A DNA stretch of 21,342 bases, from positions 1-21,342 of IMG/VR virus record IMGVR_UViG_3300036851_000647; one strand, written 5' to 3'. Positions 4,681-18,576 of this stretch are shown in pieces. Position 1 is the stretch's first letter, and each line of letters opens with the position of its first letter. The notes beneath the pieces are model-generated. The model searched no databases. It was not told the origin of the DNA and saw only the letters and a program-made list of their open reading frames with translations. Source of the stretch: a virus. Both the position numbers and the translations under genes were made by a program.

Positions 4681-7600
4681 CTAGGCCGCCCCGATCACGA
4701 TCGCGATGCCGCCGGGATTGGGCGCGGTCGCGGCGCTGCCCGTCGTCGTCACGTCACGCGTCACCTCGGTGGAGAGACCGCCGAGGGAATCACGATGGCG
4801 CAAGCCCACGCGGTAGGTCGTGCTCAGCTCAAGATCCACGAGCTCGACGCGCGTGGCGCCTGGGGGCAGCGTCTTCACGCGCACGCGCGGGTCCGATGTC
4901 GGCGTCGCGAGCAAGACCTCAGTGGGCAGCCGCGTATCGCCCGGCGTGAACGTGACGACGAACCGCCGGCCCGTCACCTCGGTGTCGCCCAACGCCGACG
5001 GCGCCGCGAGCGATGCCAGGGTCACGTTGTCCGTGCCAGGGAACGCCCAGACGGATGGGAAGCGCAGCGCGTCGTTGCTTGAGCCAGCATCGTGCCCGGG
5101 GATCGAGCGCGCGCGCACCCAGATCTTCATCCCCGCCGGCAGGTTGATCACTTTGATTGCGCCGGTCGTCTTCACGCGCTTGCCGAAGGTCCAGAGCGGA
5201 TCCGTCTCGACGGGCCGCACCCCGACTCCAGAGGCAGTCACGGCGTAGTGCATCTCGATCGGATCGCCCGCGGCGTTGAGGGTCAGCGTGAGGCTGATGC
5301 CGTGGGCCGTGTCGTCCGTATCGGTCGCGAGTCCTGACAACGTCGGCGCAGCCGCGATGACGTTTGGCCCCAAGTCCACGACCCGCATATTGAGCTCGAA
5401 CTGCCGGGCGTTGCGCTTGACGGCCATCATCACCCGCGCACCCCCCCGCAGATTGCTGGTCGGGTCGGGCATGGGATCGACATCCACAATCCGGAGCTGA
5501 CCCACTTGCCAGCCGTTCGTGTTCGCGGTGCGCCGGCAACGCAGCGTCGCATACGCGGGGCCGCTGCTGAACATCGTGCGGATCTCCTCGAGCCCCCTCT
5601 CGAGTTGGCGCCGGATGTAGCTGAGCCGGCTCTGGCCCTGGATCAACTCGCCCGGCATCGCGCGGAACCCGATCACGTCGAACAGCTCGCGCTTCTGCCC
5701 CATGTCCGCGCGGCCGAAAGTGACGTCGAGATAGGGCTGCTGGACGGCGCGCAGATGGAGCATCGCGGCCGAATCGAACGTGACCGCATCGCCGCCGACG
5801 CCGATCGGCACGTCCACGTAATAGAAGGCCTCGAGCTGGGTAATCGCGTCCTGGCGGCTCTGCTCCCACTGGAACGCGTCCCTGACTTCAATCAGATCGG
5901 TATTGGCGATGGTCGCGACGCCAGCGAGCGAGGACGGGCGCCGGGTGTCGAATACGACGACGCGGTTATCAGCATCAAGCCGGAGGCCGAGGTTGTAGGG
6001 CGGTCGCAGCAGCGCGCGCTTGAGGAACGGCAGGAGCTTGTCCTTCTTTTCGATCCGGCCGCGAAAGGTCGGAATCGTCAGATCGGCCTTGAGCGTGGCG
6101 AAGCTCGTCGGCTCCGGCGTGAACGCCTGCAGCACCGATCCATCGGCCTGCAGCCAGCCGAACTTGCCCAGCACCAGATCCTCGATCAGCTGCACCGCGT
6201 GGGTGTCGTTGATGTAGAGCGGTGCCTCCACGGTGGGCTTCTCTATCAAGATCACGCTGCACTCGACCGCCGTCCCGTTGGGCGGCATGGCGAGAAAGGC
6301 AGGGTCGGTCGCGGGCACCTCGGCGAGCACGAGCTCGTAGACGGGCAGGCCACCGGCGAACGCACCACGGATGTTCGCCGCGACGTTGCTGCCGCGGCGC
6401 ACCACGCCGAGCTGGAACTGGCCGCTGTTCGAGTTATCGAGTCGCTTGAGCTTGATGCGTGCCCTGGTCGAGTAGGTCACGCCCTCCGGGAAGAACGCTG
6501 AGAGTACGTTACCGGTGAGCCCGGGGTTCCCCATCATCCAGTAGCCCGACACATCCTCGAGTAGCTTCGTCAATTGGTTTCGGGGGTTGTTGTGCTCGTT
6601 GGCGTCGACGATGACGGCCTTGATCCCCGCCGATGCCGGGAAGCCGGTCGCAGCCTGAATCTTCCCCTTGATCGGCAGGCCGGGCTGCAGCGCGCCGTAG
6701 GCCACCGGTGGCCCCTGGGGCCAGACCTGGGCGGGCGCGGTGTAGGTGAGCGAGCTGTGCGGCCGCTCCACGAAGACGTCGGCATCGTTCAGCTCGTCGG
6801 CGCCGTCCCGGCACGGGATGCTGTAGGCGTTCTTCTCGGCGAGCTTGGTCAGGTCCATCCGGCCCGTGAAGTAGGACGCCCAGATGAAGCCGTTGTCGAG
6901 CGATTCCTCCCAGCGCGCTTTCAGGCCGAGCAGCTGGTTGCGATTGCGCACGTCGCCCAAGTACTGCGTGATGTAGCGCGAGAGGTTGTCGCCGGGCGTG
7001 ATCTGGCGATCGATCAAGCCCGCCGTCATGTAGCCCGTGTTGAGCACGCGCGAGAGCGGATCGAACTCGCCCGTGATCCCCTCGGGATCGCGCAGGTAGG
7101 GCTTGAAGTGCAGGATCGTGTCGTCGGTGCCGGCGTCGATGCCGACCGGCGTCAGGTCGTTGAGGCCCGCGCTGTCGCGGCCCAGGGCGGGGACGCCGTC
7201 CAGATCGAAGCCCCAGCGGCCGCACAGGCCCGTCTCGTCGATGTAGATGCCGCCGGCGTGCTGCTTGACCTCGGCCGGCGTGAGCACCCGCTGGCGATAG
7301 AGCCGCACTTCGTCCAGCTCGCCGATCCAGGGAGTGCTGAAGCTGCCGCCGACGGCACTCTGGCCGATCCCCACGGCAGCGGCGCCCCCACCGGTCATGC
7401 TGTATCCGGTGGCGATCGTGCCGCTGTGCGCTTGCACGCCGTCGATGTACAGCTTGGCGGCGCCGTCACTGGACTGCCACGTAAAGGCGATGTGATGATA
7501 CTTCCCATCGGTCGAGTAGTTGTCGGCGTCTTGGAGATCGACGTTGTTGACGGTGCCCTGTAGCCGCAGGTTCGGCCCGGCGACGCTCGCGAGCCGCAGC

Positions 7601-7914
7601 TGAATCGCCTGGATCTCGCTGCCAGAAGCGACGGCATAGCTGAACAAGAAGTGACTGACGCCGAGCTGCCCGGCATCGACGCGCGCGTAGCCCTCGAGCG
7701 AGAAGCTCGTCGTGGGCCAGGTGCCGACGGGATTCCGCAGCATGTAACGGCTCGTGCTGCCGAACCGCACCGCGCGGCCGTGATCCTTCGTGGAAACGCG
7801 GAAGGGGTTGGAGTGCAGCGCGCCGGCGCGGGGCACGAGTACGGTCGCCTCGTCGATGTCAATGGAGCGCGGCGAGTAGACGGTGAGGCGGTAGAGCGGT
7901 TGATAGACGGTCAC
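4681..7914 (-). CDS. Large tail hub protein with LamG and FN3 domains
   Basis: A 1077-residue protein starting at a GTG that overlaps the preceding stop (GTGA). A longer in-frame extension to 8055 lies over the previous gene and is rejected. Residues about 45-225 are a LamG/concanavalin-like jellyroll: the strand Lys-Leu-Tyr-Ile-Asp-Gly (154-159) and the ending Gly-Glu-Leu-Asp-Glu-Val-Arg-Leu-Tyr (198-206) are typical. The large centre (about 240-880) contains no domain I can name and should be the tail-tip hub or baseplate core. The last 100 residues look like a fibronectin type III domain. Order after the tape measure and tail-tip genes fits a central tail protein of the J/Tal class. LamG domains bind sugars, so host-surface recognition is likely. 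Confidence 0.87.
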   Translation of the reverse strand: MTVYQPLYRLTVYSPRSIDIDEATVLVPRAGALHSNPFRVSTKDHGRAVRFGSTSRYMLRNPVGTWPTTSFSLEGYARVDAGQLGVSHFLFSYAVASGSEIQAIQLRLASVAGPNLRLQGTVNNVDLQDADNYSTDGKYHHIAFTWQSSDGAAKLYIDGVQAHSGTIATGYSMTGGGAAAVGIGQSAVGGSFSTPWIGELDEVRLYRQRVLTPAEVKQHAGGIYIDETGLCGRWGFDLDGVPALGRDSAGLNDLTPVGIDAGTDDTILHFKPYLRDPEGITGEFDPLSRVLNTGYMTAGLIDRQITPGDNLSRYITQYLGDVRNRNQLLGLKARWEESLDNGFIWASYFTGRMDLTKLAEKNAYSIPCRDGADELNDADVFVERPHSSLTYTAPAQVWPQGPPVAYGALQPGLPIKGKIQAATGFPASAGIKAVIVDANEHNNPRNQLTKLLEDVSGYWMMGNPGLTGNVLSAFFPEGVTYSTRARIKLKRLDNSNSGQFQLGVVRRGSNVAANIRGAFAGGLPVYELVLAEVPATDPAFLAMPPNGTAVECSVILIEKPTVEAPLYINDTHAVQLIEDLVLGKFGWLQADGSVLQAFTPEPTSFATLKADLTIPTFRGRIEKKDKLLPFLKRALLRPPYNLGLRLDADNRVVVFDTRRPSSLAGVATIANTDLIEVRDAFQWEQSRQDAITQLEAFYYVDVPIGVGGDAVTFDSAAMLHLRAVQQPYLDVTFGRADMGQKRELFDVIGFRAMPGELIQGQSRLSYIRRQLERGLEEIRTMFSSGPAYATLRCRRTANTNGWQVGQLRIVDVDPMPDPTSNLRGGARVMMAVKRNARQFELNMRVVDLGPNVIAAAPTLSGLATDTDDTAHGISLTLTLNAAGDPIEMHYAVTASGVGVRPVETDPLWTFGKRVKTTGAIKVINLPAGMKIWVRARSIPGHDAGSSNDALRFPSVWAFPGTDNVTLASLAAPSALGDTEVTGRRFVVTFTPGDTRLPTEVLLATPTSDPRVRVKTLPPGATRVELVDLELSTTYRVGLRHRDSLGGLSTEVTRDVTTTGSAATAPNPGGIAIVIGAA

Positions 7915-9572
7915 GCCGCGAGCGCCTTGGCGATCGTGTCGCGGGTAATGCCGCCGAAGGTGAGCGGGCCGATCTTCACGCGTGCGAACGCGTTGGTCCC
8001 GATCAGGGTTGCCCCGCCGTAGCGGCCCAGATGCAGCCGCGTCGAGGCCGCCCACGCAGCCGGTAAAGCCTGCCCGGCGGTGGCGCTGCCCGCCACCTCG
8101 GCGCCCCCGTTCAGGCTCTGCCGCAGCTGCGCGACGCCGGCAGCGGTGAGCGTCATCAGCTGCGCGACCGTGTCACGGAAGGCCACAGCACCCGGGGTCC
8201 CCGACCCCTGCTGCGTCGGATTGAAGAATTGAACCGAATAGCCCCCGCTCCCGTTGGCTTCGATGTCGATGCGCGGCGCCTGCCCAGCCGGACCATTGAT
8301 CGCGACCACCATCGTGCCGCCCCCGCTCTGGGCCGAGCCGCGCTCAACGAACTCGACGAGCGCGAACATCGCCTGTGGGATATACGGGAACGACCAGGAG
8401 AGGTCATCGTTGTTGCGCGTCCCGAGGCTCGGCCCCTGGTAGCTCGACGGAAACGCCGCGTTCCAGGCGTTGGCGCCGAAGGCGTAGACTGTCAGTCCCG
8501 TCGCGCTAACGTCCGGGTAAATATCGAAGCGGTTGGTGTTCGCGGCCACGACGCTATTGATGCCGAACGCCAGCGCATACCAACCGCCGCCGAACGCGAT
8601 CACGGGAAACAGCGTGCCGCTGCCTGTGGATGTTGAGAGCGAGGGTACGCCAGCCGTCCACGTCACCGACACTAGATGCCGATAGACCCCAGCGGTCGTA
8701 TCGCGGATCGCGATTTGCGAAGTCGCCGCGGTGCCAGCTCGCATGAAGAGCAAGACGACTTTCGTCCCGTCTCCAGTAAAAGCAACGTTCTGTGTGATGC
8801 CTGCTCCGCCAACGGCATTGGTGTCGAGCAAATACGCGGCCGTAGCGCGGAATGGGTCCGCCTGGCCGGACGTGAGCACACAATCGGCCGCCGTCCAGTT
8901 GCCGAAGTTTTCCGGGTCCGTAACGAGCTGCGTCCGCACCGCCTCCAGCAGCGTCGTCCGCAGGCTCCCCTCGTAGTGCCGGTCCCGCAGCACGCCGCTC
9001 GCGTCACTCGCTCCTACGGCCGACACGAGTGTACCCGGCAACCCGCGTCGCGTCGCCGCCGTCGCCCGCGTGAACGTCGCCGCCACGGGGTCCGTCAGGC
9101 TAGCCCCCGGCGCGTACTCGAACATGATCCCGCGCAGCGCCTCGTGGAAACTCTTCGCGGGATTCCGCAGCTTCAGCCGCACGTTGCGCTTGATGTCGGG
9201 CGACAGGTTGCCGAATCCCTTCCGCGGCTCCACGAGGTAGGTGTTATCGACGTAGAAGTCGGGGACGGTCTCGTCGGGCTGGAACCGGAAGGCCCGCCCG
9301 TCGCGTGCCCAGTCGACGAACTCTTCCCAGCTGACGGGGCCCGAGAGCTGCGTCTGCACCGGGTTGGTCCCCGGGCCGTCGGGGATCCACCGCACCTCGG
9401 TGTCCATCGTGAACATCTTGTTCTGCCGCCACGTATCGACGCTGCCGTCGGGCACGTCGATGTACTCGCTGCCCGCGCCGTCTTCTCGGTCGGTTAAAAT
9501 GTCGTAGAGCGGGAAGCCCACGCGGATCTCGTTCTCGAGGCCCGTGCCGAAGAGGAATTTCGAGACCGTCAT
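7911..9572 (-). CDS. Distal tail protein with carbohydrate-binding-like C-terminus
   Basis: A 553-residue protein that overlaps the tape measure stop by 4 bases (ATGA). Residues 1-145 are the part typical of the gene after the tape measure in many siphoviruses, including the Trp-rich segment 81-107 (SWEEFVDWARDG and the Phe-x-Pro-Asp strand). After that, ATFTRATAAT (165-174) and a Leu-Leu-Glu-Ala-Val-Arg-Thr (208-214) block mark the widespread phage module that precedes a jellyroll carbohydrate-binding domain. A Trp-rich beta domain (about 225-395) and a second beta domain (about 400-553) follow. It probably joins the tail tube to the hub and carries a receptor-binding domain. The domain order is seen; the binding role is inferred. 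Confidence 0.83.
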   Translation of the reverse strand: MTVSKFLFGTGLENEIRVGFPLYDILTDREDGAGSEYIDVPDGSVDTWRQNKMFTMDTEVRWIPDGPGTNPVQTQLSGPVSWEEFVDWARDGRAFRFQPDETVPDFYVDNTYLVEPRKGFGNLSPDIKRNVRLKLRNPAKSFHEALRGIMFEYAPGASLTDPVAATFTRATAATRRGLPGTLVSAVGASDASGVLRDRHYEGSLRTTLLEAVRTQLVTDPENFGNWTAADCVLTSGQADPFRATAAYLLDTNAVGGAGITQNVAFTGDGTKVVLLFMRAGTAATSQIAIRDTTAGVYRHLVSVTWTAGVPSLSTSTGSGTLFPVIAFGGGWYALAFGINSVVAANTNRFDIYPDVSATGLTVYAFGANAWNAAFPSSYQGPSLGTRNNDDLSWSFPYIPQAMFALVEFVERGSAQSGGGTMVVAINGPAGQAPRIDIEANGSGGYSVQFFNPTQQGSGTPGAVAFRDTVAQLMTLTAAGVAQLRQSLNGGAEVAGSATAGQALPAAWAASTRLHLGRYGGATLIGTNAFARVKIGPLTFGGITRDTIAKALAA

Positions 9573-11368
9573 CCGCCGTTGCTCCCCCAGCCCTTCGGCT
9601 CGACAATCACCTGGCGCCCGGTGAGGTCCTCGAACAGCTGGGCGAACACGACCTGGTTCTTCGGATCGCGCAGGTCCACGATGCCGCTATCGGACTCGAA
9701 CCGAATCACCAGCGTCGTGGGGCCCTGGTCGCTACTCCCGCTGCCGCCCGAGGCCGACGCCGAATAGCCCCCCCCGCCGCCGCCACCGCCCTCGCCGCTG
9801 AGCCCCGCGCTCGAGATGCGGGCGGCCTGCGCGCCGAGCGTGTTGCCGAGCGCGATCAGCGCGGCACCGACGGCGATCGCGGCTAGTGGATTCTTCGCGA
9901 AGAACTTGATCGCGAAGCCGAGCTTCCCGTACAGAATCGACACGACGCCGAGCTCGACGAGCGTCTTGCCGATCATTTTCATGACGCCGGCAAGCACGTC
10001 CCCGATCGCCCCGATGAAGCCGCGGAAGCTGTGCGTAACGCCGCCCAGGAGGTCGCCGATCTGCCCGGCGATCGCCTCAATGCCGTCCGCGACGCCCTGC
10101 ATGACGTCCTGGATGATCTTCCCCTCGGCGATGATGGCCTCGCTCGCAATGTGCGGGCTGATACCCATCGCCATCATTTCCCGGAACTGCAGGGCGGCCT
10201 TGGTCCGCTGCTCGAGCGTGGACCCCAGCGCATTGATCATGCGCGCGAAGTCGGCGCCGTCATTGGTCGCGATCTGAAACCGCTCGGCGAGCACTCGCAC
10301 GGCCCCCGAAAATGGACTGACGCCCTTATCGATGAGCTCCTTGATCGCCGCCTGGTAGAGCCGCGCCTGGTCGGCCGAGAAGTTGTAGGTCACGCCCATC
10401 GCCTGGGCGAGCCGGTGTGCGCGCTCGAGATCGCCGGCGAGCTGCTTCAAGACCTCATCGACAATCAGGGTCTCGCCAGCGAGCGTCTTCGTGCTCCCGG
10501 TCGCGGCGTCGGCCGCCTTCTGGAACTCGAGGATCTTTGCGGCGGATTTGGCGAGCGAGCGATCGACGAATGCATCGACGCGCGACTGCAGCCCATGAAT
10601 CGCGTCGGCCGCTTTGGCGAGACCCGCGCTCATCGCCCCAAATGCCGCGCCCATGATCCCGGGCACCCCGCTCAAGGCCGAGGATACGTTCGCCCCGCCT
10701 TCAATGAGCGCGGCGAAGCCCTCCAGGATGCCTTGGACGGCGCCGTAGACCGCTTCCTGCACCGCGGTCCAGGCGAGCATGAGCCGTAGGCTCACGGCCT
10801 CCCAGTGCGTGGCGATGTAGATCGCCGCCGCGGCAAGGGCGATGATGGCGACGGCAATGAGGCCCGTGGATGTCAGGAGCAGACTGAAGACTTTAATCAT
10901 GGCTCCAACCGCGGCGATCAGCTTGCCGACGACAAGCAGCGTCGGGCCCAACGCCGCCAGAAAGGCCAGCGTGTGAATGATGACCGACCGCATACCTGGC
11001 GACAGGTTGTGGAACGCCTGGATCCAGCCCTGTACAATCGCGATCCCCGAGCGGAGCGCGCCGATGAACTCGAGGAAGACAGGCTGCAGCTCGCGCCCGA
11101 CCGTCAGGAAGAGATTGTGCAGCTCCGCCTTGAGCGACTGGAATGCCGTGAACAGTGGCCCGAAGCTCCGCGTCGAGTCCTGCAGCAACGCATGGAACGC
11201 CGCGAAGCCCGCGGCGATGAGCGGCAGGCTGATGGCCTGCGTCATTTCGCGGCCGGCGCGCGCGATCATTTTGCCGGTGCGTTCGATGCGCCGGGCCGCG
11301 CTGTCCATCTCCCGGTGAAACTCGGCCGCGTTGGCAGAGAGCTTTACGACGAGACTGGCGATCGTCAC
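9569..11368 (-). CDS. Tail length tape measure protein
   Basis: A 599-residue protein starting at GTG, overlapping the frameshifted chaperone stop by 4 bases. The N-terminus (Ser-Ala-Asn, AAEFHREMDSAARRIER) is a typical tape measure coiled coil, and the rest is Ala/Leu-rich helix. Hydrophobic stretches are at about 128-188, again at about 440-515, and shorter between; family members insert such segments into the host membrane during DNA ejection. A Gly run (about 526-534) leads into a short C-terminal domain. Tape measures set tail length at about 0.15 nm per residue, so the tail should be near 90 nm. Position after the G/GT chaperone is diagnostic. Confidence 0.94.
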   Translation of the reverse strand: MTIASLVVKLSANAAEFHREMDSAARRIERTGKMIARAGREMTQAISLPLIAAGFAAFHALLQDSTRSFGPLFTAFQSLKAELHNLFLTVGRELQPVFLEFIGALRSGIAIVQGWIQAFHNLSPGMRSVIIHTLAFLAALGPTLLVVGKLIAAVGAMIKVFSLLLTSTGLIAVAIIALAAAAIYIATHWEAVSLRLMLAWTAVQEAVYGAVQGILEGFAALIEGGANVSSALSGVPGIMGAAFGAMSAGLAKAADAIHGLQSRVDAFVDRSLAKSAAKILEFQKAADAATGSTKTLAGETLIVDEVLKQLAGDLERAHRLAQAMGVTYNFSADQARLYQAAIKELIDKGVSPFSGAVRVLAERFQIATNDGADFARMINALGSTLEQRTKAALQFREMMAMGISPHIASEAIIAEGKIIQDVMQGVADGIEAIAGQIGDLLGGVTHSFRGFIGAIGDVLAGVMKMIGKTLVELGVVSILYGKLGFAIKFFAKNPLAAIAVGAALIALGNTLGAQAARISSAGLSGEGGGGGGGGYSASASGGSGSSDQGPTTLVIRFESDSGIVDLRDPKNQVVFAQLFEDLTGRQVIVEPKGWGSNGG

Positions 11369-11936
11369 GTGCGGCGTCCTTTCATCGTATCCAGATTGCC
11401 CGACGCTTCAGCGGCCAGCTCGGCCTGTTTGCGGTCCTGCTCTTCGAGCTCGTAGTACGCCATCCACTCGTTGAGCTGGGTGCTACTCAGACCGTCGAGG
11501 AGGGCGTCGACGTCGGGGAGGCCGAGGCGTTCGGCGAGGCGGTAGGCGAAGCGCCGGACGGCTCGGCCGCGGAGTTTCCCACGAGCTCCTCCACGTCCTC
11601 TTTCGTGATGCCGGACAGCCGTGCCGCCGCCTCGAACACCGGCTGGAGGAAGGACGCGGGCAACTGACCGATCGCCTCGGCGTCGCCGTCGTGGAAGAAT
11701 CGATCGCCATTGTCGTCGCGCACGGCCAGCTCCAGCAGCTTGGCGCGCAGGTTCGAGAAATCCTCCGCGGTCTTCTTGCCGTCGCGCTTAACGCACGAGC
11801 GCTCAAAGGTGTCCCGCTCTTTCCCGGTCAGTTCCTGCACGACGACCGGTCCGTCGGCCGTCTCGACCGTTTCCCGCTTGAGCGCGCGCGGCTTCAGAAA
11901 CGCCTCGCGCGTAAGTGATTTCTTGATGCTCTCCAT
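11365..11936 (-). CDS. Tail chaperone GT, -1 frameshift product
   Basis: This is the fusion expected from a -1 ribosomal slip at GGGAAAC (11574-11580). It has 121 residues of the G frame, then 69 residues (LRGRAVRRFAYRLAERLG onward) ending at 11365, 190 residues in total. The extension contains the T-type signature: LSSTQLNEWMAYYELEE. That Asn-Glu-Trp-Met-Ala-Tyr block is highly typical of siphovirus T domains. In lambda-like phages, GT and G together coat the tape measure while the tail tube assembles, and GT recruits the tube protein. The downstream tape measure start overlaps this stop by 4 bases, so GT synthesis also couples to it. The frame and slip site are seen directly; the efficiency is unknown. 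Confidence 0.88.
11487..11936 (-). CDS. Tail assembly chaperone G (zero frame)
   Basis: A 149-residue protein starting MESIKKSLTREAF with a strong ribosome binding site (GGAGGAG) 4 bases upstream. The body is charged and helical; residues 122-149 form a Ser/Pro/Thr/Ala-rich low-complexity tail that is probably disordered. This tail is what ribosomes make when they do not slip at GGGAAAC. Genes in this slot between the tail tube and the tape measure encode the abundant tail chaperone. A reading frame extending upstream to 12812 covers the tail tube genes and is rejected, since this start has the ribosome binding site and conserved-looking sequence. Family identity rests on position, size and the frameshift. 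Confidence 0.88.
   Translation of the reverse strand: MESIKKSLTREAFLKPRALKRETVETADGPVVVQELTGKERDTFERSCVKRDGKKTAEDFSNLRAKLLELAVRDDNGDRFFHDGDAEAIGQLPASFLQPVFEAAARLSGITKEDVEELVGNSAAEPSGASPTASPNASASPTSTPSSTV
11574..11580 (-). other. Programmed -1 frameshift site GGGAAAC
   Basis: The heptamer fits the X-XXY-YYZ rule in the zero frame: GTG GGA AAC becomes GGG AAA C after a one-base slip, and both tRNAs can re-pair. The -1 frame then stays open for 69 codons and ends at the tape measure start. Lambda uses the related GGGAAAG for G/GT. A Shine-Dalgarno-like GGAGGAG lies 5 bases upstream and may stimulate slipping, but it also encodes Glu-Glu, so it could be coincidence. A weak GCCG/CGGC stem can form downstream. 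Confidence 0.88.
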
Positions 11937-11947
11937 GACTCCTCCGG

Positions 11948-12355
11948 TTACGCCGTCGCGCGGGTGATGGGGCCGGCCAGGTCGATCGTGACCTCGCAGG
12001 TATCGCGGCCGCCAACCTCGCCCGCGAGCGGGTTGTATGCGCTCCAGAAGCCTTGGAAGGTCCACTTGGGGTTGCTGGTGCTGACGGCGCCGGCGTCGTG
12101 CCGCACCTCGATCGCGACGACGAGTCCCGCCTGCGCGGCGAAGGTCGCGTCGACCGAGCCCGGGGCGTAGTCCTGGAAGAGCGTCGCCTTCAGCTGGCCC
12201 GTCGCGAGGCCTGGCTTGTAGGTTCGCGTCGTCGCACTCATCGCGGTGAAATCCTGCGTCTCGAATCCCTCCGGCAGCTCGATCGAGAAGAGGTGATCGG
12301 ACAACACCACCCCAGCGAACGAGAGGTAGGCATTGGTCAAGACTTTGGTGGCCAT
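11948..12355 (-). CDS. Second tail tube-like protein
   Basis: A 135-residue protein with a strong ribosome binding site (AGGAG, 7 bases from the ATG). Its first 66 residues match the preceding tail protein: both begin Met-Ala-Thr, then Leu-Thr-Asn-Ala, and share Glu-x-Gln-Asp-x-Thr and Thr-Arg-x-x-Lys-Pro-Gly-Leu in register. The second half differs and ends with a short strand-rich part (WTFQGFWSAYNPL). It lacks the long middle of its 245-residue neighbour. The pair is best explained by tandem duplication of a tail tube gene. It may be a minor tube, tail terminator ring or adaptor component. Position before the G chaperone is the tail tube position. Confidence 0.85.
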   Translation of the reverse strand: MATKVLTNAYLSFAGVVLSDHLFSIELPEGFETQDFTAMSATTRTYKPGLATGQLKATLFQDYAPGSVDATFAAQAGLVVAIEVRHDAGAVSTSNPKWTFQGFWSAYNPLAGEVGGRDTCEVTIDLAGPITRATA

Positions 12356-12364
12356 GTCCGTCTC

Positions 12365-13102
12365 CTATTGAATGGCGAGCACGATGACGAAGGTGATGCT
12401 GTTGCCGCCGCCGCCGGCGACGCTCCAGTTCGCACGCCACCACGTATCCGTGGCGATCGGCCCGTTCACGGGTACGGCCCACTGTGAGCCTTTGACCGTG
12501 ACGGCGCTGAACGTGATCCGGTCCGTCGCCGACGGGAAACCCTGCGCATCGTCGCTCTGGATCTTGAAGGTCCACGTCCCGCCGCCCGAGATCGCCAGGA
12601 CGTGCAGGGTCGCGAAGAGCTGCTGGCCGGATCCGACGAGGCCCTGGTTGAAGGCCGTGCCGCTGCCCGCGCTGCTGACGGTGCCGTTCTTGACGATGAT
12701 GCCGCGCACGAGCTCGTAGCTCGTGGCCATCGCCTCGATGTTGAACTTGAGCATGTCGCCGGCGCTGCCCTGGAGCGGCACGAACGACGCGAGCGCCGCC
12801 ATCAGCGACCATGCGGTATCGCCGTCGGCGCCAGTCGGCGTTGCCAGGCTGAGCGGCACATCGAGGAGGCCCAGCTTCGAGGAGAGGAATTCCTCGGACA
12901 GATTCGGGCCGAAATTCACGAAGCCGGCGCCCGACATCTTGGTGGTCAGTAACCCCGGCTTGAAGATCCGGGTCAGGGGCGGCGTGCCGAAGACGGTCGC
13001 GTCCTGCGGCTCCACGCCTTGCTCGAGCGCAACGGCGTTCATGTCGCCCGTCAGATCGTAGGAGTCGAGGAGGATCTTGGCGTTCGTGAGTTGCGTCGCC
13101 AT
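12365..13102 (-). CDS. Major tail tube protein
   Basis: A 245-residue protein whose ATG overlaps the previous stop (TAATG). It shows the N-terminal pattern of phage tail tube proteins: Gln-Asp-Ala-Thr-Val-Phe-Gly (33-39) followed by Thr-Arg-x-x-Lys-Pro-Gly-Leu. The C-terminal 75 residues form a beta sandwich-like end with conserved-looking GTWTFKIQSDDAQGF and Trp-Trp-Arg-Ala. It should polymerise into the hexameric tail tube. It is longer than its neighbour and is taken as the major protein of the pair. Order just after the DUF3168-like terminator and the 61-residue protein, and before G/GT, is that of siphovirus tail modules. Confidence 0.88.
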   Translation of the reverse strand: MATQLTNAKILLDSYDLTGDMNAVALEQGVEPQDATVFGTPPLTRIFKPGLLTTKMSGAGFVNFGPNLSEEFLSSKLGLLDVPLSLATPTGADGDTAWSLMAALASFVPLQGSAGDMLKFNIEAMATSYELVRGIIVKNGTVSSAGSGTAFNQGLVGSGQQLFATLHVLAISGGGTWTFKIQSDDAQGFPSATDRITFSAVTVKGSQWAVPVNGPIATDTWWRANWSVAGGGGNSITFVIVLAIQ

Positions 13103-13287
13103 TAAGACCTCACTCCCTCGACCGGCGCTACGATGCGTGCCGATGCCTTGGCGTATTCGATCCGCAGTCTCGTGAGTTGCCCAACATGAGCGCGAAGAAC
13201 AATCCCCGCGACCTCATCGGAGATGTCCCGGCCGTCGAGCACCACGCGCCCATAGCCGATCTCGTTCAATTCGAGCTCGAGCTTCAT
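13102..13287 (-). CDS. Small hypothetical tail-module protein
   Basis: A 61-residue protein starting MKLELELNEIGYGRVVL, with a GGGAG ribosome binding site 7 bases before the ATG. A longer reading frame to 13464 in the same frame is rejected because it overlaps the tail terminator gene and translates to low-complexity Ser/Arg. Proteins of this size and slot between tail completion and tube genes are common in phages and have no known function. The stop shares its A with the tail tube start (TAATG). The sequence is beta-strand rich, with a Gly-Arg-Asp-Ile-Ser turn (19-23). Confidence 0.8.
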   Translation of the reverse strand: MKLELELNEIGYGRVVLDGRDISDEVAGIVLRAHVGQLTRLRIEYAKASARIVAPVEGVRS

Positions 13288-13291
13288 GGCT

Positions 13292-13702
13292 TCACTCCCG
13301 ATACCAGACGATGAGGTCCACGACGCGGTGATACAGCCGCGTGTCCGGCTCGCGCCCGAGATCGCGCTCGTTGTCCACGAACACATCGAGGATCTCGACG
13401 CCGAGCAAAGTCCCGCGGAAGCGGCGGTAGCCGGCCCGCACCTGGTCCCCGACGCTGCGCGCATCGGTGCTCGTGTCGCCCCAGCAGCTGAACTGGAACC
13501 GCGCGCGGACCATACCCGGATCGCTGCCCATCGCGTGCTCGGGCGGCCCGCTGATCAGCTGATAGGTCGCATACGGCCGGTCCGCGTTCTGCGTGACCGC
13601 ATCGACCGGATACAGCCGCATGTTCGGCTGTATGCCAATGAGGCCGGTCAGTCCGGCGAAGGCGGCCGCGCGCGCGATGAGCGCGTCGTCGATCGTGCTC
13701 AC
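13292..13702 (-). CDS. DUF3168-like tail terminator protein
   Basis: A 136-residue protein starting at a GTG that overlaps the previous stop by 4 bases (GTGA). It has the DUF3168 layout: an N-terminal helix (IDDALIARAAAFAGL), a Tyr-Pro strand with Tyr-Gln-Leu-Ile-Ser-Gly (47-52), the Phe-Gln-Phe-Ser-Cys-Trp-Gly block (69-75), and a closing strand (VVDLIVWY). Members of this family, like lambda gpU and HK97 gp11, cap the tail tube and join it to the head. Gene order directly after the gp10-like gene fits. The Cys-Trp-Gly motif is present, so the family call is fairly secure. Confidence 0.85.
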   Translation of the reverse strand: MSTIDDALIARAAAFAGLTGLIGIQPNMRLYPVDAVTQNADRPYATYQLISGPPEHAMGSDPGMVRARFQFSCWGDTSTDARSVGDQVRAGYRRFRGTLLGVEILDVFVDNERDLGREPDTRLYHRVVDLIVWYRE

Positions 13703-14178
13703 GAGGCCTCATGCGGCACCCGCTTCTTGAAGGCATCCTCGATCTGCCGGCCCAGCGTGTCACCGATGATCTGGACCGCGTCCTCGGCATGCTGGTCGAT
13801 CGCGGGGCGCAGGAAGGGGTAGGCGGGGACGTGGCCAATCACATGGCCGCCCTGGCCGAGTGCGCCCCCGGCGACTTGCGCATGCCCGAACTCCCGCAGG
13901 TGCGCGATGGGCGAGTTGGTGCCGACCGCGACCCGCGCGCTCTCCTTGCCCATCTGCTCGACGTCGGTCCGGATGGTCTCGGCGAGCGGCACGGCTTCGG
14001 GCCGCCGGCGCGGACCGCGGTGAATCGACGCCGCAGCTTGGGCGTCTTCTTTGATCGGCTCGGCGCCGTCGACCAGGGCGGTCGCGAGGATCTCCCCCCG
14101 CACAGCCTCAGGCAGCTCACGCAGCGCATCAGCGAGCTGCTTACCATTCGCGAAGTCCATCTTGACGGTCTCGCGCAT
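13699..14178 (-). CDS. HK97 gp10-like tail completion protein
   Basis: A 159-residue protein starting at the ATG in TGATG; an in-frame GTG one codon upstream is an alternative and would overlap the adaptor stop by 4 bases. The pattern is that of the HK97 gp10 family: an N-terminal helix with Leu-Arg-Glu-Leu-Pro, a GTNSPIAHLREFGHAQ strand, then a Pro-Ala-Tyr-Pro-Phe-Leu-Arg-Pro-Ala motif (122-130) before a long C-terminal helix. Family members act at the head-tail junction or tail completion. A Gly/His-rich insert (about 103-120) precedes the PAYPFLRPA motif. Confidence 0.88.
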   Translation of the reverse strand: MRETVKMDFANGKQLADALRELPEAVRGEILATALVDGAEPIKEDAQAAASIHRGPRRRPEAVPLAETIRTDVEQMGKESARVAVGTNSPIAHLREFGHAQVAGGALGQGGHVIGHVPAYPFLRPAIDQHAEDAVQIIGDTLGRQIEDAFKKRVPHEAS

Positions 14179-14513
14179 CACGTTCCCCGCTGGACAGCCA
14201 AGAGATCGAGATCACGTCCAGGCAGCACCGGCAGTACCTCGCCGATGTCGTAGAACACACCGTTGGCATTCACGCGCATCTTGGCAAGGACGCCGGCGAC
14301 ATAGGGGGTGATCGAAACCCTGTGCGTGACCTCAGCAAAAATTTGCTGCGCCGCGATGAGTTCTCGACCGGCAAGCGGCTGAATCAGTGCAGACCCAGAC
14401 CAAAACGTCGTCGGCGCACCGGGAATCGGCTCGCCGCGCGAATTCTGTGTCTCCGGCAACTGCTCGATCGTCGCCGCGACACCGCGGATCTGAATCAGTC
14501 CATCGCGGCTCAC
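14178..14513 (-). CDS. Head-tail adaptor (head closure) protein
   Basis: A 111-residue protein that starts at GTG overlapping the connector stop by 4 bases (GTGA). It fits the head-closure adaptor family (SPP1 gp16/HK97 gp7-type): a short strand-turn start, Gly-Arg-Glu-Leu-Ile-Ala-Ala-Gln (49-56) followed by a strand with Thr-His-Arg-Val-Ser-Ile, then Gly-x-Phe-Tyr-Asp-Ile-Gly-Glu-Val (85-92). Such proteins close the portal channel after packaging. A longer frame to 15026 is rejected because it covers the gp6-like gene and is rich in Arg and Ala. Position between gp6-like and gp10-like genes supports the role. Confidence 0.85.
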   Translation of the reverse strand: MSRDGLIQIRGVAATIEQLPETQNSRGEPIPGAPTTFWSGSALIQPLAGRELIAAQQIFAEVTHRVSITPYVAGVLAKMRVNANGVFYDIGEVLPVLPGRDLDLLAVQRGT

Positions 14514-15064
14514 GCGACGATCGGCCGCGCCGGCACCGCGCGCCAACTGGGTAGCTGCTCGAAGCGATCGCGTAACCCGTGCACGAAGGCGCCAATCCCC
14601 TCGGTGGACGCGTCTTCCGAGCCGCGCATGCGATAGACCAGCGCGACGCCGTCGAGCACTGCCTGCTTCGCATCCTTGTCGAGCTGGTCCGCGGCGTCGA
14701 AGGTCACCTGCACGTTTGCCACGCCGCGCGGGAAGATCCCGCCGTCCTGGCGAACGATGCGGCGACCCACCGCAATCACTGTCTTGGGCGCCGCTACGAG
14801 CGTCTCGTCGGGGTTGGCGGAGTCCAAGCCAATCTTCACATTGGTGAGGGTGCTGACCGGCCGTTCGAGCCACACATAGGGCATGCCGGTCCCATCCACC
14901 TTGACGATGACGCCAGCAGCGGACGCGACGAACGTGCGGCGTTTGGTCTGCTCGAGGATGACTTCGACGCGATCGGCGAGGTCTGTGAGCAGCGAGTCGT
15001 CGGAGGAGCCGGTTATTCCGAGCCATGATTTGACCTCCGCGAGTGAAACCAGGTCGGCCGGCAT
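14510..15064 (-). CDS. Head-tail connector, HK97 gp6-like
   Basis: A 184-residue protein with the gp6-like pattern: Leu-Ala-Glu-Val-Lys-Ser-Trp-Leu-Gly (8-16), a Ser-Asp-Asp-Ser-Leu-Leu segment, then a long helix with Val-Ile-Leu-Glu-Gln-Thr. The C-terminal half is strand rich and ends in a proline-rich tail. Such proteins form the ring under the portal that receives the tail. The ATG has a purine-rich AGGCGG about 6 bases upstream. The neighbouring gene order (connector, adaptor, gp10, terminator) is classic. Confidence 0.86.
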   Translation of the reverse strand: MPADLVSLAEVKSWLGITGSSDDSLLTDLADRVEVILEQTKRRTFVASAAGVIVKVDGTGMPYVWLERPVSTLTNVKIGLDSANPDETLVAAPKTVIAVGRRIVRQDGGIFPRGVANVQVTFDAADQLDKDAKQAVLDGVALVYRMRGSEDASTEGIGAFVHGLRDRFEQLPSWRAVPARPIVA

Positions 15065-16219: not shown

Positions 16220-17485
16220 TTACAGCCCGGTGACCGAGCAGAACGCGGCAGCCCGGCGCACGACGAACGCGAACCGTCCATCAGCGCGGAGCGTCTTCTT
16301 GCCTTCCGTGAACTGCGTGCCGGTGAAGCCGACCTCGACCGTGATGCCCTTCCGCTCCCAGAGCTTCGAGAAGCGGCCGAAATCGCCGACGAGACCGGTC
16401 CCGACCGTCAGGACCTCGTTCAGCGCCACGGGCACGCCGAACAGGTTCATTGGCCCCGGCTCGGCCGGGTTGCCCATGATGTAGATACCGTCTGCCGTCC
16501 GCATGAGCCGGAAGGTCTGCCAGTCGGTCGAATGCAGCGAGATCACGTCCGGCTCAGCGCGACCCACCGCGCGCACCTTCGTGACCGCCTTGAAGACGGC
16601 GTCGAAGTGCGGATCGGTGCTGCGGGCCTGCGTCTGGATGCCGCCGGTGTTCAGAATACCGGTGAGCTGCACGCCGGCGCCGGTCCCGACGATGACTTGC
16701 GAATCCACTTTCTGCCGGATGCCGAAGCGCAGGTCGGTGTCGAGCAGTCCTGCCATCTGATCGACGTCGTCCAGCTGCTCGTCCGTGACCGGAATGGAGT
16801 CCGCGACCTTGCGCGCGGGCGACGTGCGTTCGGTCCAGACGTAGACGCTTTCCAGATACGTCCCACCTTCCGCGAGCTCGGCGGCCGAGATCGTGTAGGT
16901 GGTCTTCTCCATGAAGATGATCGTGGGGTTCGACGTGCCCTCGATCGGGATCACGTCGAGGATCTGGATCGGCCGCGCCGCGAACGGCACGACGTCGGCG
17001 ATCCGCGGCGGCCGCGGCGCGAAGCCGGCGGTGGTGGTCACGAGCGTCTTCTGCCCCTGCAGGTAATCTCTCGAGCTGATGGGGATCTCGACGCCGAAGG
17101 GGCCGCGATTTTTCCCTTGGTCGCGCCATTTCAGATACGCCTCGCCTTCGACCAACAGCCGGCCGAGCGACTTCTCGCTGTTCGGGGAGGGGGCGGGATG
17201 GCGACCGGAAGAGGGCTTGGGATTGCGGAGCGCCTCGTCGCGCTCGTCGTGGTCTTTGATCTCTTCCTTGAGCTCTTCATCGGTGGCTTCGTTGAAGAGC
17301 CGGTGCGCATCGCCGTTCAGCGCACGCCATTTCTTGACCGCGTCGGCCGAGTCCGTCGCGCTGAGCTTTTCGAGCACCTCGCGTTTGCTGAAATCGCGCT
17401 CGGCGCCCGCGAGCTTGAGCACGTCGCCGACGAGGGTGTGTTTGGTGCGGGCTTCCTCGCGGAGTTCGATCGACCGTTTGGCCAT
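16220..17485 (-). CDS. HK97-fold major capsid protein
   Basis: A 421-residue protein. The N-terminal about 140 residues are charged helix (delta/scaffold region), then a proline-rich linker (about 88-104), and the HK97-fold core from about 145. Signatures include AGFAPRPPRIADVV, GTGAGVQLTGILNTGG and a closing Phe-Arg-Phe-type E-loop/P-domain layout with Leu-His-Ser-Thr-Asp-Trp (318-323). The prohead protease upstream should remove the N-terminal domain. Start ATG at 17485 has a perfect AGGAGG with a 6-base spacer, the strongest site in the window, suiting the most abundant virion protein. Confidence 0.96.
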   Translation of the reverse strand: MAKRSIELREEARTKHTLVGDVLKLAGAERDFSKREVLEKLSATDSADAVKKWRALNGDAHRLFNEATDEELKEEIKDHDERDEALRNPKPSSGRHPAPSPNSEKSLGRLLVEGEAYLKWRDQGKNRGPFGVEIPISSRDYLQGQKTLVTTTAGFAPRPPRIADVVPFAARPIQILDVIPIEGTSNPTIIFMEKTTYTISAAELAEGGTYLESVYVWTERTSPARKVADSIPVTDEQLDDVDQMAGLLDTDLRFGIRQKVDSQVIVGTGAGVQLTGILNTGGIQTQARSTDPHFDAVFKAVTKVRAVGRAEPDVISLHSTDWQTFRLMRTADGIYIMGNPAEPGPMNLFGVPVALNEVLTVGTGLVGDFGRFSKLWERKGITVEVGFTGTQFTEGKKTLRADGRFAFVVRRAAAFCSVTGL

Positions 17486-17600: not shown

Positions 17601-17894
17601 TTAGGAAACTATGTTCAGCAAGTCAACTACCGGTCTCGGACCAGTGCCAGGGACCAGTTCAAAAACATTGATCCAACCACAACTCCGACACCGGAACTTC
17701 TCGGCGCCAGGCGGCAGCTGAATCACGATGAACTGCGGCACGTTGCGGAAGACACCGCAAATGCGCAGCGGTCGCGGCATGCGATCGCCCTCGCGCCCGC
17801 AGTGATGGCAGCGGAAGAGCTCGAGCCGCGGCTCAGTAGTTGAGCTGACGGCGGGTGCGCTCAAATTTCTCGACCTCTTGATCGATTTCCGCAC
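17601..17894 (-). CDS. Com-like zinc-ribbon protein
   Basis: A 97-residue protein when started at GTG 17894, which has GGAGAG 8 bases upstream; a TTG at 17864, with AAGAGG upstream, is an alternative. The gene overlaps the protease end by 62 bases, in another frame. Two CxxC pairs (29/32, Cys-His-His-Cys, and 69/72, Cys-Arg-Ser-Cys) separated by 36 residues should form one zinc ribbon. This resembles the Com-type zinc proteins of Mu-like phages, which control translation by RNA binding. The intervening segment is Pro/Val/Ile-rich. It lies directly upstream of the hairpin-covered capsid start. The zinc ribbon is seen; regulation is a guess. A small structural protein is the alternative. Confidence 0.72.
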   Translation of the reverse strand: MRKSIKRSRNLSAPAVSSTTEPRLELFRCHHCGREGDRMPRPLRICGVFRNVPQFIVIQLPPGAEKFRCRSCGWINVFELVPGTGPRPVVDLLNIVS

Positions 17895-18576
17895 GCTGGC
17901 GTCTCTCCGCTTCAGCGTCGTTATTGGCCTTCACGCGCGCATGCGCCTCGTGCACGGCATCAATCTCTGTCTGCGTAGGCCCTTTCTGCTCGCTGGCCAC
18001 GGGTTCAGCGGCCGCCGGCGCTGCCTCGGCTGGTTTTTCCTTACCAGCCTCATCCGCCGCGTGCTCGCCACTGCATTGCGCGCACTTCGCGGTCACGGTG
18101 CGGGTATCGATCCCCGCGCCGCGCATGACCGGACTCACCTCGTGCACCAGCAGCTTGCTGAGGACGCGCCGCACGCCGCGCTGGCGCAACTCTTCGGTCA
18201 CCTCGCCCGTGGCCTTGACCTCGAACGAGTAGGACCATTCCTGGCTCGGTCCCACGTTCTTCACGGTCGTGAATTGCTCACGACCGGCGACCGTGTCGAG
18301 GAAGTACTGGCCGACCATCCGAGCGTCCTTTTTCGTGACCTTGATGACGCCCTTTCCCACGGGCGGCTCGCCGAAGACGGTCCCGTGACCCCAGGACCCG
18401 ATCAGCACCTCAGCACCGTCCTCGAAGGCATCCTTCTCAGTCCAATCGCCGTGATGGTCGATCGCGTCGAAGGTCGCGTAGACGACCTCGACCTGCCCCT
18501 TCTCCGCATCCTTGATCTCGAGCGTGACAGCTTTCCGCTCGAATGTCGTCGTTTCAGTTGACTTTGGCTTTGGCAT
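17833..18576 (-). CDS. Prohead protease (HK97/U35-S78 family)
   Basis: A 247-residue protein with ribosome binding site AGGGAG. It has the herpesvirus/HK97-type assemblin pattern: Val-Val-Tyr-Ala-Thr-Phe-Asp (31-37), Asp-His/Gly, then WGHGTVFGEPPVGKG containing His64, Trp-Ser-Tyr-Ser-Phe-Glu-Val (114-120, probable nucleophile Ser117), and HEVSPVMRGAG with Glu146. The likely triad is therefore His64-Ser117-Glu146, assigned by pattern only. It cuts the capsid N-terminal domain during head maturation. The C-terminal third (about 160-247) is an Ala/Glu/Lys/Gln-rich, coiled and partly disordered extension with one Cys-Ala-Gln-Cys pair (165-168). That extension may serve as scaffold. It lies directly upstream of the capsid, as expected. 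Confidence 0.92.
   Translation of the reverse strand: MPKPKSTETTTFERKAVTLEIKDAEKGQVEVVYATFDAIDHHGDWTEKDAFEDGAEVLIGSWGHGTVFGEPPVGKGVIKVTKKDARMVGQYFLDTVAGREQFTTVKNVGPSQEWSYSFEVKATGEVTEELRQRGVRRVLSKLLVHEVSPVMRGAGIDTRTVTAKCAQCSGEHAADEAGKEKPAEAAPAAAEPVASEQKGPTQTEIDAVHEAHARVKANNDAEAERRQRAEIDQEVEKFERTRRQLNY

Follow-up and report, generated by a model that had tools for sequence, protein, structure and literature searches.

Does the gene directly upstream of the tape measure gene in this virus encode a single tail assembly chaperone or, by means of a programmed frameshift, two? Frameshifted tail chaperones have been known for decades in lambda and many other tailed phages, and the lambda slip site is GGGAAAG. 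In lambda, G and GT are made at a ratio of 30:1, and the arrangement is conserved among long-tailed phages (PMC5009743, where the lambda G/GT studies cited include those of Levin, 1993, and of Xu, Hendrix and Duda, 2004, 2013 and 2014). We analysed a whole 21,342-nucleotide stretch of DNA (the window; IMG/VR virus record IMGVR_UViG_3300036851_000647, positions 1 to 21,342), and the evidence set out below argues, with a probability of about 0.96, that this is a long-tailed phage whose tail operon uses a programmed -1 ribosomal frameshift of the lambda G/GT type.

The minus-strand genes are arranged as a siphovirus-like module, running from a head maturation protease (17833–18576), a major head protein (16220–17485), a Phage_HCP head completion protein (14178–15026), an HK97-gp10/neck protein (13699–14181) and a tail terminator (13292–13702) to the tail genes. 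Gene G (11487–11936, minus strand; ATG at 11936, TGA ending at 11487) lies between major-tail-protein-like open reading frames and the tape measure gene (9569–11368, minus strand; 599 residues; phrog_991, E 4.6e-20), and its 149-residue zero-frame product matches the PHROG 344 tail assembly chaperone family (E 1.6e-22, residues 3–130). Two major-tail-protein-like frames stand consecutively before G on the same strand, one at 12365–13102 (phrog_9522) and one of 135 residues directly upstream of G at 11948–12355 (phrog_4574, E 1.2e-15), which suggests either a duplication or a pair of tail-tube-type proteins. A 1124-residue frame (4681–8055, minus strand), located downstream of the tape measure gene, has weak matches to phrog_3545, of unknown function, and to phrog_8510, a virion structural protein.

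The slippery heptamer G_GGA_AAC occupies 11580–11574 on the minus strand, near the 3' end of G, where the zero frame reads GTG GGA AAC. A preliminary description of this DNA had called it a perfect X-XXY-YYZ heptamer, and it is indeed in phase with G; it is also the sole in-phase heptamer of this form in the gene, GGGAAAC at 11875 and GGGAAAG at 11825 being out of phase. Beyond it the -1 frame, which re-reads the last C of the heptamer, runs for 69 codons (11365–11574) and ends in a TGA at 11367–11365 that overlaps the tape measure GTG start at 11368. The same description had placed the end of this frame over the tape measure start and given the fusion 190 residues; both are borne out, with 121 residues of G and 69 of the extension making up a predicted GT product encoded at 11365–11936. 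The zero frame continues past the heptamer for 28 codons and a stop (11487–11573), encoding a tail rich in Ser, Pro and Ala.

Some features of this anatomy carry little weight. The openness of the -1 frame was rejected as evidence: it is weak by itself because the DNA is G+C-rich and holds many long open frames (137 of at least 60 residues in the window), and upstream of the heptamer this frame has another 69 open codons. The frequency of the bare 7-mer GGGAAAC is uninformative, as it is not rare in the window (five copies against 1.9 expected). Counted over the 13 minus-strand open reading frames of the window, in-phase heptamers number 15 in 4613 codons, most of them composed of G and C only. 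What rises above chance is the phase of the heptamer, its position, its homology and its conservation.

The identity of the extension was approached with profiles. NEWMAYYELEE had been put forward as a T-domain signature; the string is present in the GT fusion and conforms to the family-typical ELxEWxAY motif, but the Pfam model Phage_tail_T remains below its cut-off on the T part (E 0.038). Library models for tail assembly gave weak matches, to phrog_25875 (E 1.4e-5) and to phrog_39 (E 1.6e-4), whereas a T profile built from relatives only, without the T of the window, recognized the -1 frame of the window and no other frame (E about 2e-15).

Relatives were then compared at the junction itself. 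The motif used in an earlier search (A1) had spanned the KN/GN-L junction, so that its count of heptamers in 11 of 11 loci was biased; the present search was therefore run with a G motif lying away from the junction. The 80 loci obtained (L022–L101) are the best 80 of at least 500 relatives, so that the counts apply to the nearer members of the family; reduction at 80% identity left 54 non-redundant loci. By the T profile, the T domain lies in the -1 frame in every one of these best 80 of at least 500. A perfect heptamer stands at the homologous codon in 31 of the 54 loci drawn from them, spelled AAAAAAC in 20, GGGAAAC in eight, and AAAAAAT, GGGAAAT and GGGGGGC in one each. Where the zero frame has Gly-Asn at the site, the Gly codon is GGA in all nine cases among the 54, a codon that is rare in the genes of the window (33 of 438 Gly codons). 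The preliminary description had held that a missing T-family match, together with a heptamer and -1 frame that were not conserved in related genomes, would speak against it; given the profile match and this conservation, the opposite was found on both counts.

The heptamer is not confined to one codon, nor is it present throughout. In 15 further loci of the 54 (from the best 80 of at least 500), an in-phase heptamer is found a few codons away, namely AAATTTN or GGGTTTC at the next codon, GGGAAAA at the preceding one, or CCCTTTY about six codons further on. CCCTTTY at about six codons downstream is apparently used in L031, L042, L050, L062, L066, L075, L076, L084, L090 and L098; in L031 the usual slip position is excluded by a stop in the -1 frame immediately preceding this heptamer. 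In this subgroup the slip site appears to have moved while T was kept in the -1 frame. Eight of the 54 loci, from the same best 80 of at least 500, lack a canonical heptamer around the junction, and the motif is therefore not universal in the family. In these eight (L025, L041, L051, L079, L081, L087, L091 and L095) T is still in the -1 frame; their junctions read, for example, GCG GAT TTC or TCG GAC TGA.

Could T instead be an independent gene, translated from a start codon of its own, the heptamer being incidental? It is annotated as a separate CDS in REQ1, AbIPP1, Psymv2 and Shagrat. In the window, however, the T frame, open from 11787, contains no ATG, GTG or TTG between the preceding stop and an ATG at 11463, which leaves T without an ordinary start codon; that ATG is 39 codons past the start of the heptamer, within the conserved NEWMAYY motif, and would yield only about 32 residues. 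Such a start is likewise lacking in 72 of the 80 loci (best 80 of at least 500). Moreover, in-phase heptamers occupy only 13 of 5967 upstream codons in the G genes of the relatives, and their frequency at the junction codon (31 of 54) is more than 200-fold higher. Taken with these observations, an independent T gene is most improbable.

Named phages bear on a second objection, that a single chaperone gene was broken across two frames, either by an indel from sequencing or by a genuine mutation. A single-base error can produce a -1 change, and the window is an IMG/VR virus record. Searching with the GT fusion (tblastn) found phiSASD1, Dubu, REQ1, Jflix2, Shagrat, AbIPP1 and Psymv2, most of them annotated as tail assembly chaperones; the records of phiSASD1, Dubu and Jflix2 contain joined chaperone CDSs whose lengths fit a -1 shift. 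The junction is free of gaps in an alignment of the fusions from the window and six relatives, and Asn-Leu is invariant there; the heptamer of the window falls in the same column as GGGAAAC or AAAAAAC of the relatives (AAAAAAC in AbIPP1, Psymv2, L002 and L003). The Streptomyces phages phiSASD1 (gp35/35.1) and Dubu (gp13/gp14) have homologous G and T, at about 37–40% amino acid identity, and the identical in-phase GGGAAAC in that column; they differ from the window in a zero-frame TGA directly behind the heptamer and in a longer T, of 115–118 residues as opposed to 69. Because independent relatives share the -1 relation – all 80 of the best 80 of at least 500, from many independent assemblies, and the isolated phages phiSASD1, Dubu, Psymv2 and AbIPP1 – and several place a zero-frame stop immediately after the heptamer, an indel or mutation is excluded for practical purposes. 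The anatomy of the locus, its homology and the conservation of frame and site are matters of direct observation. Among GenBank phages, no DNA-level relatives of window positions 9000–15000 were found, and a search with G found no relatives in host genomes.

A third possibility is that the -1 frame is reached by slippage of transcription at the G/A run and not by the ribosome. The runs in GGGAAA are just three long, and polymerase slippage usually requires longer ones. Some recoding does depend on polymerases slipping along homopolymers (reviewed in PMC5009743), but what is conserved across relatives here is the two-codon X_XXY_YYZ phase and not run length (AAAAAAC, GGGAAAC, GGGTTTC, CCCTTTC), and we give this explanation almost no credence.

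For a programmed ribosomal frameshift, the following course is envisaged. Most ribosomes would read G to its zero-frame stop and release the 149-residue chaperone. In a minority, the tRNA-Gly on GGA and the tRNA-Asn on AAC would slip back by one base onto GGG AAA, and these ribosomes would continue in the -1 frame to give the 190-residue GT fusion. If lambda is a guide, G may coat the tape measure protein and the T part may recruit the major tail protein, with G and GT leaving before the tail is complete. The occurrence and rate of slippage, as well as the chaperone roles, are what we infer from the DNA sequence. In E. coli, heptamers ending in AAC are less prone to shifting than those ending in AAG, as stated for A_AAA_AAC (PMC5009743), which counts against the frameshift reading.

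The stretch read in both frames allows the constraint on each to be compared. The nearest relative, L022 (IMGVR_UViG_3300012211_000241), also has GGGAAAC and a 28-codon zero-frame tail; its G is 54% identical to that of the window, its T has 70 residues with NEWMAYY and a stop overlapping the tape measure ATG, and the two tape measure proteins are clearly alike at the N-terminus only (46% over 26 residues). Across the 28 overlapping codons, the window and L022 differ at 22 positions, of which 4, 5 and 13 fall at T-codon positions 1, 2 and 3, and 21 of 28 residues are kept in the T product against 14 of 28 in the zero-frame tail. For this one pair, the pattern is suggestive of T being the constrained frame. 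Because the substitutions in the overlap follow the T frame, the tail in the zero frame probably arises as a by-product of T coding; that the Ser/Pro/Ala-rich tail of 28 residues, equal in length in L022, has a role of its own and makes the overlap truly dual-coding is very unlikely.

Two candidate stimulators were considered. A hairpin starting 5 nt downstream of the heptamer (-28.3 kcal/mol) has a good z-score (-3.0 at 60 nt), but such stability is common in the fragment, being reached by 35 of 87 segments with the same G+C, and the hairpin does not stand out as a special stimulator. Downstream RNA structure has been identified at phage tail frameshift sites only in rare cases (PMC3091744). 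An internal Shine-Dalgarno-like GGAGGAG upstream of the heptamer was rejected, being accounted for by conserved EE residues and codon usage: it beat 90% of synonymous shuffles in 0 of 32 sequences, and is no stronger than codon usage predicts. Neither element is needed for the frameshift verdict.

The likeness to lambda had also been proposed in the preliminary description, with a different last base in the heptamer. The organisation is supported; the base is no novelty. As in lambda, G lies upstream of the tape measure gene, the -1 shift is placed at G_GGA_AAN near the end of G, and the T extension is in the -1 frame; unlike lambda, the window has GGGAAAC for GGGAAAG, a short T and a zero frame running on past the site. 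This comparison concerns gene organisation and slip site. GGGAAAC is shared with phiSASD1 and Dubu, and is reported for Caulobacter phage Colossus, as is AAAAAAC for the phiCbK group (PMC3556154); G_GGA_AAC is also the g-t shift site of the haloarchaeal virus HCTV-1 (PMC5009743). Colossus and HCTV-1 are likened to the window by this reported tail-chaperone slip site alone. Other heptamers that have been reported include UUUUUUC and TTTTTTG (PMC6316719, PMC3091744). The locus is thus an ordinary further tail chaperone of the lambda G/GT type, and it changes no concept. Its value lies in a correct two-product annotation for a divergent uncultivated phage, and in relatives whose slip site changes its letters but not its register with T (AAAAAAC, GGGAAAC, GGGTTTC, CCCTTTY). 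The T extensions of the 80 loci fall into two length classes, of about 59–71 and 101–128 codons, a few being cut by contig ends, and the window has a T of the shorter class.
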